From Flavobacterium sp. Root935 (GTDB lineage: Bacteria > Bacteroidota > Bacteroidia > Flavobacteriales > Flavobacteriaceae), in assembly GCF_001429295.1 (NCBI RefSeq), contig NZ_LMJL01000008.1, forward strand, positions 314,318-378,317: a stretch of DNA of 64,000 nucleotides. The letters are read 5' to 3'. The translations under genes and the position numbers were made by a program. Shown here piece by piece: positions 16,598 to 26,102 of this stretch; within the stretch, counting starts at the first letter, position 1; each line of letters opens with the position of its first letter. The notes under the pieces were generated by a model that was not told where the DNA came from, searched no databases, and saw only the letters and a list, made by a program, of their open reading frames with translations.

Positions 16598-17302
16598 TTA
16601 TAATTCCAGCTTTTTTAATCTATCGGTTAGTTCTCTTTTATAAGTAATTCCTATTGGAATTTTTTCATTTTTAATTACCACAAAATCTTTTTCAGTAACC
16701 TCAATTTTATCTAAGGCAACTATATACGATTTATGAATACGCATAAAACTTTTTTCTGGCAGGCATTTATCAAATTCAGTTGTTGTAATCGATGCCAGAT
16801 AAGTCCTTTTAATTGTATGCAGTTTTACATAGTTCCCAAAACTCTGCGCAAACAAAAGCTGATCTAATTCGATATTCATTAAGTAGCCGTCGACTTTCAC
16901 ATTAACCGAATTAATTGCTTCTTCTGGTTTTTGTTTTCCATTTTCTGTGGCAAAAAAACGATCAATTGCTTTTAAAAATCTTGGAAAATAAATCGGTTTC
17001 AGCAGATAATCAATCACGCCGTAATCGTAACTTTCTAAAGCAAATTCAGAATAAGCGGTTGTCAAAATAGTTTTTGGATGTGTTGGAAGAATCTTCAGCA
17101 GTTCCATTCCAGAGATTTCAGGCATATTAATATCCAAAAACATCAAATCAACAGTATTTTCTCTGAGATAATTCATTGCTTCAATACCATTATAACCCTG
17201 AAAAACCAATTCTAACTGCGGATTCTGTTTGATGTAATTCGCCAAAACATAATGCGCCGCTGGTTCGTCGTCTACAATAATGCATTTTTTTGCGTCTCTC
17301 AT
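16598..17302 (-). CDS. LytTR-family response regulator
   Basis: 234 residues. The receiver domain (about 6-120) has the acidic pair in CIIVDDEPAAHYVL, the phosphoacceptor Asp in DLMFLDINMPEISG and the conserved Lys in YLLKPIYFPRFLKA. The C-terminal LytTR DNA-binding domain contains LLFAQSFGNYVKLHT and FMRIHKSYIVALDKI. The start codon overlaps the last bases of the sensor kinase gene (ATGA), so the two are translationally coupled. The pair is divergent from an OMF-RND-MFP efflux operon, the most likely target. Confidence 0.92.
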   Translation of the reverse strand: MRDAKKCIIVDDEPAAHYVLANYIKQNPQLELVFQGYNGIEAMNYLRENTVDLMFLDINMPEISGMELLKILPTHPKTILTTAYSEFALESYDYGVIDYLLKPIYFPRFLKAIDRFFATENGKQKPEEAINSVNVKVDGYLMNIELDQLLFAQSFGNYVKLHTIKRTYLASITTTEFDKCLPEKSFMRIHKSYIVALDKIEVTEKDFVVIKNEKIPIGITYKRELTDRLKKLEL

Positions 17303-18336
17303 CCTACAAACTTTTTAAGTTGTATTTCCAAATCAACAATATAAGTCTGTTTATCGTCTTGAATATCTAATTTATAATCTTTCCCATAAATTAAATTCAA
17401 ACGTTCGATTGTGTTTTTTAAGCCGATTTTAGTCGAAATCACATCGTTTTTCTTCGGAATCGAATTGGTAACATGCAGATGTAGTAATCCTTCCTTTACC
17501 GTAATCGTAATTTTTACATAGCAGTTTTCTATTGCACAAGTTCCATGTTTAAAGGCATTTTCAACAAATGCAATTAAAAGCATTGGCGAAATTTTATAAG
17601 CATTTTCGTTGTCAATATCAGCATCAAATGTAATGTCACAGCGATAGCCAACTCTTTCTTTTTCAAGCTGTACATAACTGTTTATAAACTCCAATTCATC
17701 TTCCAGAGACACAAATTGCTTGCCGTTACTTTCCAGCTGATAACGCATGAGCTGCGAAACCTTCATAATCAAATCTGGTGTTCGGTCTGGAAATTGAAGA
17801 CTGATTCCGTAAAGTGTATTAAAAGTATTGAACAAAAAATGCGGATTCAATTGTCCTTTCAAAGAATTTAACTGCATTTGATTGAACAATAAAGCCGCAT
17901 CGGTTTGTTTTCTGTGAATACGATAAAATTTAAATACAATTATCGGACTCAGAATACAGACTAAAGTTCCTAGAACGCTGGCCAATTGATAAGCGTAACT
18001 TCTTTGATGCGAGTTTTGATACAAATGACATTTGGCAAACATATCCAGCATTGTGATTTCGTACAATACAACAGAAAATACAAAAACGCCAAACAATGTC
18101 AATATGATATACGTAAAAGGTTTGTTTGCTTTGAATAAAATGGGAAGGAGAAAGAAACGGTTAAATTGGGCGTGCATGTATAAAATACAATAGAAAAATA
18201 CCCCCATTAAAATAGAAATGAATGAACTAAATAACATCCAATCATTTTTTAAGGTATAAATTGTAAATGAAAAAAGGACAACGGCAACCTCCTGCCACCA
18301 TTTGTTATCCAATATGTTATCGACTTTTTTGTTCAT
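17299..18336 (-). CDS. LytS/YehU-type sensor histidine kinase
   Basis: 345 residues. Four predicted membrane helices occupy about residues 14-145. A linker leads to the His_kinase domain with its signature QLNSLKGQLNPHFLFNTFNT, whose His is the phosphorylation site. The ATPase part includes SPMLLIAFVENAFKHGT and KIGLKNTIERLNLIYG. There is no separate periplasmic sensor domain, so signal sensing is probably within the membrane. It is the upstream partner of the LytTR regulator and divergent from an efflux operon. Confidence 0.92.
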   Translation of the reverse strand: MNKKVDNILDNKWWQEVAVVLFSFTIYTLKNDWMLFSSFISILMGVFFYCILYMHAQFNRFFLLPILFKANKPFTYIILTLFGVFVFSVVLYEITMLDMFAKCHLYQNSHQRSYAYQLASVLGTLVCILSPIIVFKFYRIHRKQTDAALLFNQMQLNSLKGQLNPHFLFNTFNTLYGISLQFPDRTPDLIMKVSQLMRYQLESNGKQFVSLEDELEFINSYVQLEKERVGYRCDITFDADIDNENAYKISPMLLIAFVENAFKHGTCAIENCYVKITITVKEGLLHLHVTNSIPKKNDVISTKIGLKNTIERLNLIYGKDYKLDIQDDKQTYIVDLEIQLKKFVG

Positions 18337-18511: not shown

Positions 18512-19897
18512 ATGTATTTCAAAAAAATTACCATTTTATTTTTATTGATTTTTGCCTCAATCGGTTACTCTCAGACCCTTTCTTTAAAAGAAGCAATAAA
18601 AACTGGGCTTGAAAACTACGGTTCCATCCGAGCAAAAAACAATTACACCAATGCATCAAAAGAGACTCTAAAACAATCTCGTCGTGATTATCTGCCTAAC
18701 TTAAATTTGTCGGCGCAGCAAGATTACGGAACTGTAAATGGTCAAAACGGACCTCTTTATGGTTTTGGAGGACTTGGAGTTGCTTCATCAGGACTTCCGT
18801 TACCTGAACAAAACTGGAACTCAGCGTTTGGCGCGCTTTATCTGGTCAACATGAACTGGGATTTTTTCACATTTGGAAAAATGAAAGAAAAAATCAATTT
18901 GTCTAAGATTGATGTTCAGACCAAAGAAAAAGATTTAGAGCAGGAAAAATTCCAACAGGAAATCAAAATTTCTGCTGCTTATCTTAATTTATTAGCCAGC
19001 CAAAGATTATTGATTTCGCAGCAAAAAAATCTAGACCGCGCAGAAATTTTCAAAAAGACAGCTGTTGCCAGAGTTAAAAACGGATTATTAGCTGGCGTAG
19101 ATTCTACACTAGCAACTGCAGAAGTTTCTAAAGCTAAAATTGCTTTAAACTTAGCTAGAAATTTTGTCAAAGAACAAAACAACAAATTAGTTGATTTGAT
19201 GGGTGTTGCGCCTCAGGATTTTGTTACAGATACTCTTTTTGTAACTCAGATTCCAAAAGAACTAATTAAAGGAAATGTGGCAAATGACAGTCTGCATCCG
19301 TTATTGCAATTCTATAAAACGAGAATTGATTACAGCAACCAGCAGGTTAAATTATTCAAACGTTTTTATTACCCAACAATGAGTGCTTTTGGTGTTTTAC
19401 AAACCAGAGCTTCAGGATTTGAAAACAGCTATGCAACCGACCAAAATGCTTTCAGCAGAAATTATTGGGACGGCGTAAATCCAGATCGTACAAACTATTT
19501 GATTGGAGTTGGAATTACGTGGAATTTAACCACGCCGTTTAGATCCAGTAAACAAGTCAGCGCTCAGAAATTTGTTTCTCAGGCTTTACAGGAAGAATAC
19601 AATCAGGCGGATAGAGAATTGAAATCACAGCTCAATTTTGCCGAAGATAAGATCAGAATTACTTTAGAAAATTATGCCGAAGCGCCTATTCAGGTTGATG
19701 CGGCAAAAAGAGCTTATTTGCAAAAATCCACTTTATACAAAAACGGTTTAACCGACTTAACTGATTTAACACAAACAATGTATGTTTTGAATCGTGCGGA
19801 AATTGATCGTGATATTGTTAACAATAATGTATGGCAGTCGTTTTTGCTGAAAGTTGCAGCAACTGGCAATTTTGACTTATTTATAAATGAATTTTAA
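18512..19897 (+). CDS. TolC-like outer-membrane efflux protein
   Basis: 461 residues with signal peptide ILFLLIFASIGYSQ. Two TolC repeats of helix-rich sequence are visible: QTLSLKEAIKTGLENYGSIR at the start of the first and a second set including SQALQEEYNQADRELKSQLN. It forms the outer-membrane channel for the RND pump encoded 10 bases downstream. Placement first in the operon, before the pump, is typical of one Bacteroidota efflux family. Confidence 0.9.
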   Translation: MYFKKITILFLLIFASIGYSQTLSLKEAIKTGLENYGSIRAKNNYTNASKETLKQSRRDYLPNLNLSAQQDYGTVNGQNGPLYGFGGLGVASSGLPLPEQNWNSAFGALYLVNMNWDFFTFGKMKEKINLSKIDVQTKEKDLEQEKFQQEIKISAAYLNLLASQRLLISQQKNLDRAEIFKKTAVARVKNGLLAGVDSTLATAEVSKAKIALNLARNFVKEQNNKLVDLMGVAPQDFVTDTLFVTQIPKELIKGNVANDSLHPLLQFYKTRIDYSNQQVKLFKRFYYPTMSAFGVLQTRASGFENSYATDQNAFSRNYWDGVNPDRTNYLIGVGITWNLTTPFRSSKQVSAQKFVSQALQEEYNQADRELKSQLNFAEDKIRITLENYAEAPIQVDAAKRAYLQKSTLYKNGLTDLTDLTQTMYVLNRAEIDRDIVNNNVWQSFLLKVAATGNFDLFINEF

Positions 19898-19907
19898 TTA
19901 GATCCAA

Positions 19908-22900
19908 ATGAATTTAATACGTTTTGCACTCCGCAAGCCCATTTCCATATTAGTATTGGTTGCGGGTCTATTTTTCTTCGGAATTGGTGCCATCAAAGAC
20001 ATTAAGGTAGATATTTTACCGAAAATGAATTTGCCGGTTATCTATATTGCGCATCCTTTTGGAGGTTACACGCCAGACCAGATGGAAGCTTATTTTGCCA
20101 AGACTTATGTCAACATTCTGCCTTTTGCCAATGGTGTAAAATCGGTAGAAACTAAAAATATTCAGGGGTTAATGATCATGAAATTAACCTATTATGAAAA
20201 CACAAACATGGCGCAGGCAGCAGCCGAATTGAGTTCGCTTTCGAACAGAATTCAAGCGGCATTTCCACCGGGAACACAGCCTCCGTTTATCATTCGTTTT
20301 GATGCTTCTTCACTGCCGATCGGACAATTGGTTTTGAGCAGTAAAATACGTTCAAACAACGAATTACAGGATTTAGCCAACGTTTATGTCCGTGCTTCGT
20401 TTACTTCGATTCCAGGATTATTGTCTCCGGCACCTTTCGGCGGAAGCCCAAGAACAATCGAGGTTAACGTTGACCCAGATTTACTGCGTTCGCATAATAT
20501 GACACCAGATCAGGTTGTAGAAGCGATTCGTGTCAACAACCAAACGGCTCCGGGCGGAAACGTGCGAATGGGCGACAAAAATTATATCACGCCGACCAAC
20601 AATACAATTAAAGAAGTTAAGGATTTTGAAAACATTCCGTTATTCAAAGGAAGCGTTCAAAACTTAAAATTAGGCGATGTAGCGACTGTAAAAGATGGTG
20701 CCGATATTACTGCGGGTTATGCTTTGGTAAACGGAAAACGTTCAGTTTATATCAGTATTGCAAAAGCTGGAGATGCTTCGACTTGGGATGTGGTTCAGAA
20801 ATTAAAATCAGAACTTCCTAAAATTCAGAGTACATTACCAGAAGACGTAAAATTATCATACGAATTTGACCAGTCGGTTTATGTAATCAACTCGGTTAAA
20901 AGTTTAATTACCGAAGGAATTATCGGTGCGGTTTTAACGGGTTTAATGGTTTTATTATTCTTGGGAGATAGACGTGCAGCGTTAATCGTAATTTTAACGA
21001 TTCCGATTTCGATCATTTCGGGAGTTTTATTCCTGAAATTATTTGGGCAGACGATCAACTTAATGTCGCTATCAGGATTGGCTTTGGCAATTGGTATTTT
21101 GGTGGATGAAAGTACGGTTACGATCGAAAATATTCACCAGCATCTCGACATGGGAAAACCAAAGGCACTCGCCATTTGGGACGCCTGTCAGGAAATTGCT
21201 TTACCAAAATTATTGATTTTATTGTGTATTCTTGCCGTATTTGCACCAGCATTTACAATGGTTGGTATTCCGGGAGCGTTGTTTCTGCCTTTGGCTTTAG
21301 CAATCGGATTTTCAATGGTAATTTCGTTTTTACTTTCACAGACTTTTGTGCCTGTAATGGCCAACTGGTTAATGAAAGCGCATCCAAAACACGATCATAC
21401 GCCGGAAATTACAGACGATGAAGCTGAATTTAATGCCTGCGGCTTAACTCCAGAATCTGAAAGAGAGCTTATTACACAGAAAAAAAATTATGTAGAAAAA
21501 GACGATACAAACAGCGACGGAAAAATAGGTGCATTTGAGCGTTTTAGAATCCGCTTTATGAGAACGCTGGATCGATTATTCGTTCATAAAAAAGCAACTA
21601 GTATTGTATATCTGGTTTCTGCAACGGTTTTAGCAATTGTATTAATTACTTTTATAGGTAAAGATGTATTTCCTAAAACCAATTCAAGTCAGTTTCAACT
21701 GCGACTTCGTGCTCCAGACGGAACTCGTTTAGAAAGAACAGAAGAACAGGCTGTGATTACATTAAAAGAATTGAAGAAAATGGTTGGCCCGGAACATATA
21801 GGAATTTCTTCTGTGTATGTCGGACAGCACCCGTCTTTATTCTCCATCAACCCGATTTATTTGTTCATGGCAGGTTCGCATGAAGCTGTTTTCCAGGTAA
21901 GTTTAAAAGATTATCATGCCGATATGGATGAGTTTAAAGACGAGTTCAGAGCAAGATTGAAAAAAGTACTGCCAGACACTAAAGTTTCTTTTGAACCAAT
22001 TGAATTAACGGATAAGGTTTTAAGCCAAGGTTCTCCTACTCCAATCGAAATTCGAATTGCAGGAAAAGATAAAAAACGAAATGAATTATACGCCAATCAA
22101 ATTGTTGACAAATTAAAAGCAATTTCATATTTCAGAGACGTTCAAATAGGACAGCCGATTCATTATCCTGCAATGAATATTGATATTGATAGAACCCGTG
22201 CAGCAGAATTAGGCGTAGACATGAACGATATTTCACGTTCGCTTGTGGCTTCAACCTCATCATCAAGATACACCGAAAAAAATATGTGGGTTGATGAAAG
22301 AGCGGGATTATCATACAACGTTCAGGTTCAGGTTCCGTTGAACCAGATGAAAAGTAAAACCGATATTGGAGAAATTCCGTTATTGAGAAACTCGCTTCGT
22401 CCTGTTTTAAGTGACGTTGCTAAAATTACACCCGGATTTGTAAGCGGTGAAAATGACAATTTAGGGGCCATGCCGTACATTACCGTTACTGCAAACATCA
22501 ACCAAACCGATTTAGGTACGGCTACAAAAGATGTAGGCAAAACAATTAGTTCTCTTGGCGAATTACCACGTGGTTTGTTTATCACGCCAATTGGACTAAG
22601 TACTGTACTGACTGAAACATTAAGTAGTTTACAATCAGGATTATTGGTTGCCGTTTTTGTAATCTTCTTAATGTTGGCCGCTAATTTCCAGTCGTTCAAA
22701 GTTTCGTTAGTAATCTTAACGACAGTTCCTGCGGTAGTTTTAGGAGCCTTATTAATGCTGACTATTACAGGTTCTACACTAAACTTACAGTCGTATATGG
22801 GAATTATTATGTCGGTTGGGGTTTCGATTGCCAATGCCGTTTTATTGGTTACGAATGCCGAACAGCTTCGAAAAATAAATGGCAATGCCTTAGAATCTGC

Positions 22901-23192
22901 GCGTGAAGCTGCTGCACTGCGTTTGCGTCCAATTATCATGACTTCTGTTGCGATGATTGCGGGAATGCTGCCAATGGCAATTGGCCACGGCGAAGGAGGC
23001 GATCAGGTTTCTCCGTTAGGAAGAGCGGTTATCGGTGGACTTTTATTTTCTACTTTTGCCGTATTATTAATCCTTCCGCAGATTTTTGCCTGGGCACAAG
23101 AAAAAACAACGACACAATCTGTTTCTTTAGATCCCGAAGACGAAGAAAGTATCCATTATATCTCATCATTAAAACCAAAAAATGAACACTAA
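19908..23192 (+). CDS. RND efflux transporter with an EF-hand loop in the TM6-TM7 segment
   Basis: 1094 residues, the AcrB/HAE1 superfamily. An N-terminal helix (ISILVLVAGLFFFGIGAI) precedes the first porter domain. TM4 carries ALAIGILVDESTVTIEN, where the two AcrB-type proton-relay Asp positions read Asp-Glu. Between TM6 (ending near VPVMANWLM) and TM7 (VYLVSATVLAIVLITFI) lies a ~70-residue hydrophilic, cytoplasmic segment. It contains DTNSDGKIGAFE at residues 533-544, a textbook 12-residue EF-hand loop (Asp1, Asn3, Asp5, Gly6, Ile8, Glu12). The second porter domain and TM8-12 follow. The substrate is unknown. The next gene overlaps its end by 11 bases. Confidence 0.93.
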   Translation: MNLIRFALRKPISILVLVAGLFFFGIGAIKDIKVDILPKMNLPVIYIAHPFGGYTPDQMEAYFAKTYVNILPFANGVKSVETKNIQGLMIMKLTYYENTNMAQAAAELSSLSNRIQAAFPPGTQPPFIIRFDASSLPIGQLVLSSKIRSNNELQDLANVYVRASFTSIPGLLSPAPFGGSPRTIEVNVDPDLLRSHNMTPDQVVEAIRVNNQTAPGGNVRMGDKNYITPTNNTIKEVKDFENIPLFKGSVQNLKLGDVATVKDGADITAGYALVNGKRSVYISIAKAGDASTWDVVQKLKSELPKIQSTLPEDVKLSYEFDQSVYVINSVKSLITEGIIGAVLTGLMVLLFLGDRRAALIVILTIPISIISGVLFLKLFGQTINLMSLSGLALAIGILVDESTVTIENIHQHLDMGKPKALAIWDACQEIALPKLLILLCILAVFAPAFTMVGIPGALFLPLALAIGFSMVISFLLSQTFVPVMANWLMKAHPKHDHTPEITDDEAEFNACGLTPESERELITQKKNYVEKDDTNSDGKIGAFERFRIRFMRTLDRLFVHKKATSIVYLVSATVLAIVLITFIGKDVFPKTNSSQFQLRLRAPDGTRLERTEEQAVITLKELKKMVGPEHIGISSVYVGQHPSLFSINPIYLFMAGSHEAVFQVSLKDYHADMDEFKDEFRARLKKVLPDTKVSFEPIELTDKVLSQGSPTPIEIRIAGKDKKRNELYANQIVDKLKAISYFRDVQIGQPIHYPAMNIDIDRTRAAELGVDMNDISRSLVASTSSSRYTEKNMWVDERAGLSYNVQVQVPLNQMKSKTDIGEIPLLRNSLRPVLSDVAKITPGFVSGENDNLGAMPYITVTANINQTDLGTATKDVGKTISSLGELPRGLFITPIGLSTVLTETLSSLQSGLLVAVFVIFLMLAANFQSFKVSLVILTTVPAVVLGALLMLTITGSTLNLQSYMGIIMSVGVSIANAVLLVTNAEQLRKINGNALESAREAAALRLRPIIMTSVAMIAGMLPMAIGHGEGGDQVSPLGRAVIGGLLFSTFAVLLILPQIFAWAQEKTTTQSVSLDPEDEESIHYISSLKPKNEH

Positions 23193-24270
23193 AATTATAA
23201 AATACAGCCCGCTGTTTTTAGCAGCATTATTTTTTCTGAACAGCTGTAATTCAAAGAAAGAAGAAGTTGTTACGGCAGAAATTGAACCTAAAACAGAAAC
23301 GTTTCTTTTAGAAAAAGAAAAACTGACTACAGAATTGCGTTTACCAGCAGAATTAACGGGTTTCCAACAGGTAGATTTATACGCCAAAGTGAGCAGTTTC
23401 GTAAAATTATTAAAAGTTGATATTGGAACGAAAGTAAAAAAAGGACAGCTTTTGATTGTGTTAGAAGCGCCAGAAATCAGTTCGCAATTGGCTGCAGCCG
23501 AATCAAGATTGAAATCGATGGAAGCGATTTATGCAACAAGCAAAAGCACCTACAACCGTTTGTATGAAACAAGCAAGGTTGAAGGAACGATTTCTAAAAA
23601 CGATTTAGAAATGGCAAGCGGTAAAAAGAATTCTGATTACGCACAATATCAGGCTGCGGTTGCGGCACACAAAGAAGTGGGCATTATGAGAGGTTATCTA
23701 GAAATCCGCGCTCCTTTTGACGGTGTTGTAGCAGCTAGAAATGTGAATTTAGGAACTTACGTTGGTCCAGCCGGAAAAGGTTCTGATCTGCCTTTGTTGA
23801 CGATTCAACAGCAGGATAAATTGCGTTTGGCGGTTTCTATTCCAGAATTGTATACGGGATATTTACACAATGGCGACGAAATGAGTTTTAATGTAAAATC
23901 GCTGCCAGAAACTTTTAAAGCGAAAATTACCAGAATGTCTGGTGCTTTAGATTTAAAACTGCGTTCTGAGCGTGTTGAAATGGACGTTATCAATACCAAA
24001 AAAGATCTTTTACCTGGAATGGTTGCCGAAGTTTTATTGCCTTTAAACGCAAAAGACAGCACATTTGTAGTTCCGAAATCGGCGGTGGTGAATTCTGCTG
24101 AAGGTTTATTTGTGATCAAAGTTTTGAACCACAAAGCAACAAGAGTCAACATTAAAAAAGGAAGAGAAATCGACGATAAAATCGAAATATTCGGTGATTT
24201 AAACCCGAAAGATAAACTGGTAAAAATTGCCAGCGAAGAAACTAAGGAAGGCGATACAATAAACGAATAA
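23182..24270 (+). CDS. Periplasmic adaptor (membrane fusion) lipoprotein
   Basis: 362 residues. A lipoprotein signal ends in FFLNSC. The lipoyl-like half-motifs VDLYAKVSSFVKLLKVDIGT and YLEIRAPFDGVVAARNVNLG flank an alpha-hairpin (about residues 95-150); beta-barrel and membrane-proximal domains follow. It joins the RND pump to the TolC-like channel. The start codon lies inside the pump gene (11-base overlap), so translation is coupled. The operon ends here, followed by a strong terminator. Confidence 0.92.
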   Translation: MNTKIIKYSPLFLAALFFLNSCNSKKEEVVTAEIEPKTETFLLEKEKLTTELRLPAELTGFQQVDLYAKVSSFVKLLKVDIGTKVKKGQLLIVLEAPEISSQLAAAESRLKSMEAIYATSKSTYNRLYETSKVEGTISKNDLEMASGKKNSDYAQYQAAVAAHKEVGIMRGYLEIRAPFDGVVAARNVNLGTYVGPAGKGSDLPLLTIQQQDKLRLAVSIPELYTGYLHNGDEMSFNVKSLPETFKAKITRMSGALDLKLRSERVEMDVINTKKDLLPGMVAEVLLPLNAKDSTFVVPKSAVVNSAEGLFVIKVLNHKATRVNIKKGREIDDKIEIFGDLNPKDKLVKIASEETKEGDTINE

Positions 24271-24584: not shown

Positions 24585-26102
24585 ATGACAATTTATAGAA
24601 AATCTAAAGGCAATTATGAACAACATGAAGAAGTTGAAATTTTTACTAAAAAATACACTTCAAATGTTGGAGGAAAGGCATCAATGACAGCTAGTGGTCA
24701 AACTTATTTTGGAAAGCCAGAAATCTATTCGGGGTCTCAAAAATTAGATTTCGAACTAGATCTTAAATTAGATAAAGAAGAAGAAACAGTTGTTCCTTTT
24801 GGAATTTTAGATTTTAAAAACAATCCTGAAAATCCTTTTTTTAATTTTAAATACACCTTAAAAAACAGTGATATAGATTCTTTGGATTTTAAAATTACAG
24901 ATGAGAATAATGAGGTAATTTATCAGATGGGATATTTAAAACCAGTAATCATATTAGCACAAAAAAAGCCCCTTATTCTTTTTGAAGCAAAAAAAACAAC
25001 ACAAGGACCGCTTATTTCAAAAACATGGGGATATCAAAAACTTTTTGCGCCCTATGTTTTGTCAGAACCAGATTATACAAAAAGAGGCGAATATCACTTA
25101 AATTGGGATGGTTTTGACAATGACGAAATCTATGACAGTACAAAATTTGCGGGTAAAAAACTGAAAGCGCAGATTATAGCAACTAAGGAGGGCAAAGTAA
25201 AAACGAAAGAAATTGAATTTGAAGTCTCATACAAAGAGGTTGATTGGGTAGATGTAATAATTAATCGAAACACAAAACGTATAGATGTTACACTCAGAGT
25301 AAACCTTACTGATGGCGGAGAAAATGGATTAACATGCCAAACCATAAATGCAAATATGTATGGAACGCCTGCGAGGACAGTTTGCGATTGGGATAAAATT
25401 CCCCCTTCCGTTTTAAATCCAAATAATCCCGTTATTAAAAGCAGAACAAGAAGCTTTTCAGATTTAGAAAAATTAGCTTTAGATGGATTAAATTATCATT
25501 GGGGGCGAAATAGAAATCATGCAGTAGCAAAAAATATAAATATTAATGGAGATTTATTTGAATTATATATAAATACTTTCAATGTTAAAGAAAACACAAT
25601 GAATACCGTTAAGCTAACTTACAATACCAATAATGATTGGATGCGTTCAGGAAATCCAAGTAAAGTTAGAGATGTTGTATCAACTTTTGGAAAATTAGTA
25701 TCAGGCGAGAGAATAGCATATAATATTGGATATTTGAACAATGTTGACTGGTATGAAATATCTAAACAAAATTGGTATTATTCAGATGCAAAGAAATATA
25801 AAGTTGATGAAAATTTTTCAGATACATCAGCGCATGAGATAGGTCATACAATTCTCCAAGCGTATGGTGGAACTGAGTATTCTTATACTCATGCAGGAAC
25901 TTCTGATATAACACAAAGAGTTATCAAAATTAGCGATGGAGGAAAAAGTTATTTTAATGAATTGAGAACAAAAGGAGAAATAAATTTGATGTATTATTAT
26001 GAAGATGAACCATGGTCAGGAAATCGTGATTATGCAAAATACGCTGCATCCGAAGAAGATGTTTTAAGTTTACTGTGGTTAACAAAAATAAAAGTATCAT
26101 GA
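24585..26102 (+). CDS. Putative secreted zinc-metalloprotease effector
   Basis: 505 residues with no signal peptide. The first ~48 residues contain TSNVGGKASMTASGQTYFG, a Gly/Ser/Thr-rich leader that I recall from other putative flavobacterial effectors (unverified). Residues ~165-215 (GEYHLNWDGFDNDEIYD, KKLKAQIIATKEGK) look like a FlgD-type Ig fold. The C-terminal region has HEIGH at residues 417-421, a zincin HExxH motif, followed by GGTEYSYTH that could give a further metal ligand. The lack of a Sec signal suggests delivery by a contact-dependent system such as the Bacteroidota type VI system (inference). Its stop codon overlaps the start of a lipoprotein gene (ATGA), the arrangement of effector and immunity genes. 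Confidence 0.6.
   Translation: MTIYRKSKGNYEQHEEVEIFTKKYTSNVGGKASMTASGQTYFGKPEIYSGSQKLDFELDLKLDKEEETVVPFGILDFKNNPENPFFNFKYTLKNSDIDSLDFKITDENNEVIYQMGYLKPVIILAQKKPLILFEAKKTTQGPLISKTWGYQKLFAPYVLSEPDYTKRGEYHLNWDGFDNDEIYDSTKFAGKKLKAQIIATKEGKVKTKEIEFEVSYKEVDWVDVIINRNTKRIDVTLRVNLTDGGENGLTCQTINANMYGTPARTVCDWDKIPPSVLNPNNPVIKSRTRSFSDLEKLALDGLNYHWGRNRNHAVAKNININGDLFELYINTFNVKENTMNTVKLTYNTNNDWMRSGNPSKVRDVVSTFGKLVSGERIAYNIGYLNNVDWYEISKQNWYYSDAKKYKVDENFSDTSAHEIGHTILQAYGGTEYSYTHAGTSDITQRVIKISDGGKSYFNELRTKGEINLMYYYEDEPWSGNRDYAKYAASEEDVLSLLWLTKIKVS

Follow-up and report, generated by a model that had tools for sequence, protein, structure and literature searches.

A conserved EF-hand-like loop ahead of the I-alpha helix in an RND efflux pump of Flavobacterium

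The stretch of DNA analysed here, referred to as the window, comprises 64,000 nucleotides from Flavobacterium sp. Root935 (contig NZ_LMJL01000008.1) and contains an apparent operon for a tripartite efflux system. Its genes, all on the + strand, encode a TolC-like outer-membrane factor (18512–19897; Pfam OEP), an RND permease of 1094 aa (19908–23192; Pfam ACR_tran with 612.5 bits over residues 4–1061, cut-off 28), and a periplasmic adaptor (23182–24270; Pfam HlyD_D23, NCBIfam TIGR01730 with 178.4 bits, cut-off 94.9). On the − strand lie a divergently oriented sensor kinase gene (17299–18336; His_kinase PF06580), whose product is a possible regulator of the operon, and the adjoining gene of a LytTR response regulator (16598–17302). 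Among the best 80 of 318 relatives from named genomes (75 of the 80 locus titles say Flavobacterium, as counted by hand), the kinase, the LytTR regulator, the outer-membrane factor, and the RND permease are each present at all 80 loci, and the adaptor is present at 79. Six window genes were tested as neighbors, of which none outside the operon and the kinase/regulator pair is a recurrent feature of these loci. A protein of 505 aa encoded at 24585–26102 (+) has no Pfam or NCBIfam match; it contains the sequence HEIGH, a zincin-type metalloprotease motif, and its gene is located beside the operon in just one of the 80 loci (tblastn).

The RND fold of the permease is apparent from the comparison of its model with MtrD (Foldseek E 3.6e-42). 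For each of the 16 listed NCBIfam families, the protein falls short of the cut-off, HAE-1 (TIGR00915; 303.7 against a cut-off of 940.35) and HME (TIGR00914; 339.6 against 701.45) included. Its set of proton-relay residues, at positions 400–401 (21105–21110) and 975 (22830–22832), is unusual. Asp400 is found in all 173 rows of the tree described below and is followed by Glu in 156 of them, and the position of AcrB Lys940 in TM10 (numbering as in PMC8277102, in excerpt) is occupied by Ala in 147 rows and Ser in 26; the other RND permease of the window has DD and K at the corresponding positions. Four related RND sequences (L169, L170, L171, and L177) lie in open frames of ∼1470–1490 residues and are perhaps fused to another pump component.

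Codons 533–544 of the permease (21504–21539, + strand) encode the 12-residue calcium-type loop DTNSDGKIGAFE, exactly where the sequence-only reading had placed an EF-type loop. Its ligand positions are 1, 3, 5, 9, and 12, with position 9 expected to act through a water molecule by analogy with EF-hands. In a low-confidence model, the loop is placed between TM6 (helix 454–478) and TM7 (helix 561–582), and by analogy with the topology of RND pumps this side of the membrane is cytoplasmic; the model helices and this topology fit the earlier assignment of the loop to a hydrophilic, cytoplasm-facing segment. The loop-bearing linker adjoins the amphipathic I-alpha helix ahead of TM7. The hydrophilic stretch before I-alpha (residues ∼495–541; 21390–21530, +) varies in length except for the loop, and it is ∼42 residues longer than that of ZneA and ∼25 residues longer than that of the window's other RND permease. 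The alignment of ZneA to the permease stops at residue 501 and restarts at 549, and the loop segment is covered by neither of the two solved relatives with a displayed alignment, ZneA included.

The loop is predicted to be flanked by two helices. The first (residues 515–530; 21450–21497, +), predicted with middling to low pLDDT, is a candidate 'E helix' with a conserved QKK and hydrophobic residues at positions −4/−5. The second (residues 542–558; 21531–21581, +) runs from loop position 10 onward and is taken, from the model, as the equivalent of the amphipathic I-alpha or alpha6-7 helix of AcrB. A full-length AlphaFold2 model with an overall pLDDT of 55.9 comprised a helix at 521–529, coil at 530–541, and a helix at 542–558; built from 48 similar sequences (the window's two RND permeases plus 46 close orthologues), too few for the purpose, this model is too weak for a verdict on the loop, and the mean pLDDT over residues 491–540 was 42–46. 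When the segment was modeled in isolation, helices were obtained at 515–530 and 542–557 with coil in between, and the block of ten residues covering most of the loop had a mean pLDDT of 53. In both of these low-confidence AlphaFold2 models, the second helix starts at loop position 10, in EF-hand fashion. Searches with the segment model returned no significant match with Foldseek, for which the best match was an EF-hand protein (2opo) at E 3.7, and nothing significant with VIA-align (Z under 2).

The loop has the oxygen ligands of an EF-hand at positions 1, 3, 5, and 12, glycine at position 6, and a hydrophobic residue at position 8, and DTNSDGKIGAFE also conforms to the Dx[DN]xDG motif with a further acidic ligand. 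When the 49 window ORFs with 150 aa or more were compared with positions 1–12 of the PROSITE EF-hand pattern PS00018, this loop was the only match. Shuffling of the ORFs yields 0.16 such 12-position matches per window, and shuffling of the 72-aa linker produces one in 0.16% of cases. The RND ORF has one EF-type motif only. Unpaired EF-hands are usually weak binders, and the loop may pair with another copy across the RND trimer. The other RND permease of the window lacks such an element in the alignment, as the sequence-only reading had stated, and the loop was absent from all nine linkers read among the ten other RND genes of the same genome, that permease included. The genome also contains no match to Pfam EF-hand_5 at E ≤0.001.

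Conservation of the ligands was analyzed in two overlapping sets of orthologues, one of 50 genomes of the genus and one of the best 80 of 318 relatives from named genomes, a choice by which the second set favors close relatives. Among 199 genomes from the genus, 50 encode an orthologue with at least 79% identity, and the loop with its four ligands is retained in every one of these. Together, the 130 loci, in which species overlap between the sets, all retain Asp at position 1, Asp or Asn at positions 3 and 5, and Glu at position 12; the script used for this scoring passed over 46 of the loci L162–L264, in which its anchor motif was absent. Loss of the ligands in close homologues, which the sequence-only reading had named as evidence against its proposal, was found in none of the 130, and the exceptions lie outside both sets. 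Two of these have altered ligands, with Ser at position 3 and Asp at position 12 in L219 (80% identity) and Glu at position 3 and Asp at position 12 in L220 (79% identity), and three have no loop at all (L238, L239, and L164, with 80, 78, and 75% identity, respectively).

A wider collection of 117 loop-bearing rows (116 distinct sequences, as the window sequence is present twice, as Q and L001) contains 64 different 12-mers. The rows were selected by a pattern that fixes Asp at position 1 and limits positions 3, 5, and 12, and with this selection Asp is present at position 1 in 117/117 rows, position 3 is Asn in 73, Asp in 42, Ser in one, and Glu in one, position 5 is Asn in 63 and Asp in 54, and position 12 is Glu in 115 and Asp in two. 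Position 6 is glycine in 111 of the 117 rows, position 8 is Ile, Val, or Leu in every row, and position 9 is mostly Ser (71) or Gly (38), with Asp (3), Asn (3), Val (1), and Thr (1) in the others. Positions 2, 4, and 10, which do not contribute side-chain ligands, take 8, 10, and 11 different residues. Among the 116 sequences, the number of acidic ligands per loop is two in 30, three in 73, and four in 13. Conservation extends to the helix ahead of the loop, with Lys at position −8 in 116 and Gln at position −9 in 110 of the 117 rows. The first 12 positions of PS00018 are matched in 114 of the 117 rows (the misses being L016, L044, and L220). Residue 13, where an EF-hand has a hydrophobic residue, is Arg in 90 rows, including that of the window, and Lys in 27, and since it is basic throughout, the full 13-position pattern fails in the window and in all 117 rows.

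Because the selection pattern carries a risk of circularity, all 57 non-matching rows were printed and scored. One of them, L220 with its Glu at position 3 and Asp at position 12, was moved into the loop set, leaving 56. Ligand-type residues at all four positions were found in two of the 56, both with Glu at position 1. The first, L061 (66% identity), contains ENDPNHKLSLFE, a decayed loop within the loop clade with Pro at position 4, and the second, L168 (47% identity), contains the Lys-rich sequence EKNKNKKISRLD and lies outside that clade. The remaining 54 rows score at most three of the four ligands, even with a generous anchor.

The manner in which the ligands vary was analyzed on a tree of relatives with more than 880 bits and more than 940 residues (195 rows kept, 172 distinct sequences plus the query); relatives below these thresholds were read by eye only. 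According to Fitch parsimony on one FastTree tree built without the linker columns, which for such related sequences gives approximate counts, there were 22 changes at position 3 and 26 at position 5. Of the changes at these positions that started from Asp or Asn, 46/47 ended in Asp or Asn, and the corresponding value for two other Asp/Asn-rich positions of this linker, used as controls (position 4 of the loop and position −13), was 14/37 (Fisher p 4.5e-10). On this substitution pattern, we rejected the readings of the loop as a chance match and as ordinary linker. Asp at both positions 3 and 5 appeared to be avoided (DD 9, DN 33, ND 43, and NN 29 of 116 sequences; p 8e-5), a suggestive bias of which no use was made, since it had no significance in the 27 loop representatives (p 0.15).

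Outside Flavobacterium, the loop is present at eight loci in five other genera with 66–80% identity. Two of these (L162 and L190) belong to one other genus of the same family, and six (L219–L224) to four further families. The stretch ahead of the loop has remained similar in L219 and L220; in L221, L223, and L224 and, within the genus, in L057–L060, it is shorter or differs for the most part. Between the end of TM6 and the loop there are 21–52 residues, and 43 in 105 of 116 sequences. A segment profile searched against 395 genomes of the phylum matched 25 of them. The loop was read in all 17 genomes with E below 1e-23, many of which were already in the earlier sets, and the eight weaker matches, with G974 left out, proved loop-less in 7/7 cases read. 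A scan of viral contigs with one of the alignments gave 109 pattern matches with no relative among them, and so added no depth to the alignment for structure prediction.

A quick tree was made from 69 representatives; the 27 that have the loop all fall into one clade of 36 (SH-aLRT 100), and the distribution of the loop requires seven changes, which are explained most simply by one gain and about six losses. The extracted stretch measures 45–53 residues in the loop-less members of the clade and 64–95 in those with the loop. Exceptions to this shrinkage are L061 (G102) and L225 (G611), and likewise L282 (G1205), in which the preceding helix (WTEKE or WEQKE) is kept and the loop has decayed, with the ligands at positions 1, 3, and 5 lost in L225 and L282; these three are natural variants usable for tests. 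Two loop-less relatives with ∼50% identity, L163 and L191, have two FFEK/LFEK stretches in the linker and seem to carry the region of the I-alpha start twice. Since the relatives with 75–80% identity (L164, L238, and L239) lack the loop, pumping does not need this module.

The similarity to EF-hands was also assessed with a profile of 24 diverse loop segments, which was searched against all PDB chains at E ≤10. It gave 22 matches, and 21 of these were identified by their names as EF-hand proteins (one of them, the calcineurin fusion 7u0u, was assigned by inference), among them calcium-dependent protein kinase, polcalcin, calcineurin B, hippocalcin, and Asr1131/CSE. The loop is aligned in register, and the alignments cover it together with much of the preceding helix. 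These matches are partly redundant and none is significant singly, the best E being 0.029. When twelve sister linkers without the loop were made into a control profile, none of its five PDB matches was an EF-hand protein, and because its best match, to an unrelated protein, reached E 0.0098 by chance, it is only the uniformity of the EF-hand matches that counts. The window segment alone retrieved a single, unrelated PDB chain with phmmer. In Pfam, EF-hand_5 matched six of the 24 segments at E ≤1 (best 0.0014, below the cut-off), and the EF-hand families PF00036/PF13202 missed their cut-off (best 18.7 bits in five segments, against 25.9); the window's own segment had no Pfam EF-hand match whatever.

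The description of the loop as a canonical EF-hand therefore stands for the ligand positions and fails for the basic residue 13, the Pfam EF-hand scores below cut-off, and the single motif. Because of these three features, the low confidence of the loop in the models, and the lack of a structural match, we do not assign it to the EF-hand family and call it an EF-hand-like, putative calcium loop of the Dx[DN]x[DN]G type.

The loop is a real, conserved, and unusual feature of this RND pump. Judging from its sequence, it very probably binds a divalent metal. Glutamate at position 12 of an EF loop favors Ca2+ over Mg2+, and from its presence here we infer that the bound metal would be Ca2+. If the metal is bound, the chance that binding regulates the pump, beyond stiffening the linker, appears a little over even. 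The place of the loop beside I-alpha makes calcium gating of the pump plausible.

The link between TM6 and TM7 of RND pumps includes I-alpha, a horizontal amphipathic helix on the cytoplasmic side that, as the pump cycles, moves rigidly with respect to the second membrane repeat (PMC8277102, in excerpt). In AcrB, replacement of I-alpha by Gly-Ser repeats abolished drug resistance, disturbance of its amphipathicity reduced or abolished resistance, and the helix has been proposed to act as the pivot for a tilt after protonation (PMC5546932, in excerpt). On this basis, we propose, with about even confidence, that an EF-hand-like Ca2+ loop on the cytoplasmic face, before I-alpha, tunes the energy coupling of the pump. 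Among the points against this are the nanomolar Ca2+ level of the bacterial cytosol (PMC5615198, in excerpt), the weak binding usual for unpaired EF-hands, and the 30 of 116 sequences that have no more than two acidic ligands. The loop would become occupied when cytosolic Ca2+ increases, as might happen upon envelope damage. Asp533, Asn535, Asp537, a backbone carbonyl, the position-9 water, and Glu544 would hold the ion, and Glu544 would reside within I-alpha, as loop positions 10–12 form the first turn of the helix predicted there. Binding would order the linker and join the helix before the loop to the beginning of I-alpha; the mobility of I-alpha would change, and so would the way in which proton entry is coupled to drug transport. 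A bolder form of this proposal, which we hold tentatively and rate somewhat short of even, is a cytoplasmic calcium switch, in which Ca2+ acting through the loop on I-alpha would alter energy coupling and raise or lower export in a matter of seconds, with no need for new transcription. Calcium influx caused by envelope damage or by an antibiotic would be its trigger, and the differing numbers of acidic ligands (two, three, or four) would set different thresholds across species.

An alternative, which we regard as possible but rather unlikely, is a structural Ca2+ (or Mg2+) site, at which a near-permanent ion folds the long linker and fixes the start of I-alpha without any sensing. Conservation of the ligands is equally expected for such a site, and structural Dx[DN]xDG loops, often in longer loops that set homologues apart, are described in PMC3123361 (in excerpt). 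However, given the low cytosolic Ca2+, permanent occupancy of a lone loop would require unusual affinity, only the EF-hand and the calcium blade are common inside cells according to the same excerpt, and the loop-less relatives at 75–80% identity suggest a fold that is independent of the site. The loop has the character of an add-on, and as it is absent from close relatives, regulation fits somewhat better than folding.

It is improbable that no metal is bound and that the segment is an Asx/Gly-rich helix-capping turn in an acidic linker, a mere look-alike of an EF loop. The basic residue 13, the lack of a Pfam match above cut-off, and the low-confidence models would agree with such a turn, and Ser or Gly at position 9 could cap I-alpha. 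However, capping needs one or two residues, whereas position 1 is invariant, exchange at positions 3 and 5 is strictly between Asp and Asn (46/47), and Ile/Val/Leu at position 8 (117/117), Gly at position 6 (111/117), and Glu at position 12 (115/117) are conserved; the retrieval of EF-hand proteins (21/22, against 0/5 in the control) also speaks against it. Still less probable is Ca2+-dependent docking, in which the loop and the preceding helix bind a cytoplasmic partner or an acidic lipid and serve assembly or localization instead of the transport cycle. The conservation of that helix (Lys −8 in 116/117, Gln −9 in 110/117) exceeds the needs of a bare loop and would be in line with docking, but among the six window genes tested, none beyond the operon and the kinase/regulator pair recurs at the 80 loci. 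Finally, although the 12-residue pattern does arise randomly (0.16 expected over the window ORFs), a chance match is refuted by conservation, as the ligands are kept across 116 distinct sequences, whose 117 rows contain 64 different 12-mers, and in five genera outside Flavobacterium.

Tuning of the pump by a calcium loop would matter because RND pumps are mostly studied as proton-driven machines that are controlled through gene expression. A calcium-type loop on a helix that is essential in AcrB would be a direct, post-translational control point and would offer bacterial calcium signaling, a long-standing open question, a concrete intracellular target accessible to point mutation. The loop-less relatives with 75–80% identity are ready-made controls. 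Regulation of the RND pumps of P. aeruginosa by calcium is reportedly the subject of a 2017 study by Khanam. Among the papers listed in literature searches, judged by their titles and the opening lines of their abstracts, none described an RND pump with an EF-hand or calcium site. Calcium raises efflux by LmrS of S. aureus (PMC7642317, in excerpt); like the effect proposed here, this is an action of Ca2+ on efflux, but LmrS is an MFS pump, and no binding site is named in that excerpt.

The pump shares its fold, the TM6–TM7 helix, and the tripartite operon with AcrB, MtrD, and other HAE-1 RND pumps. Its identity in the structural matches shown is 19–22%, and its linker is longer; in comparison with AcrB, the Lys of TM10 is replaced by Ala or Ser and the pair in TM4 is Asp-Glu. 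Among calcium-binding loops, a close counterpart is the Dx[DN]xDG loop of Rigden et al. (PMC3123361, in excerpt), who discuss the structural roles and the origin of such loops. The DTNSDG of the pump fits this motif, and its position within a longer loop that is absent from homologues is a situation which the same source calls common. Unlike in the Dx[DN]xDG motif, position 5 is Asn in 63 of the 117 pump rows, and the cytoplasmic location assigned to the pump loop is one for which few contexts are reported in that excerpt, where only the EF-hand and the calcium blade are numerous inside cells. The twelve positions of canonical EF-hand loops (calmodulin, polcalcin, CDPK, and calcineurin B, and the bacterial CSE/Asr1131 and EfhP) fit those of the pump loop. 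Unlike them, the pump loop is unpaired, has a basic residue 13, is located in the linker of a membrane transporter, and scores below the Pfam cut-offs. Like them, it has a predicted helix before it and another from position 10 on, and Asr1131, the cyanobacterial Ca2+ sensor CSE, is among the proteins that its profile matches in register.
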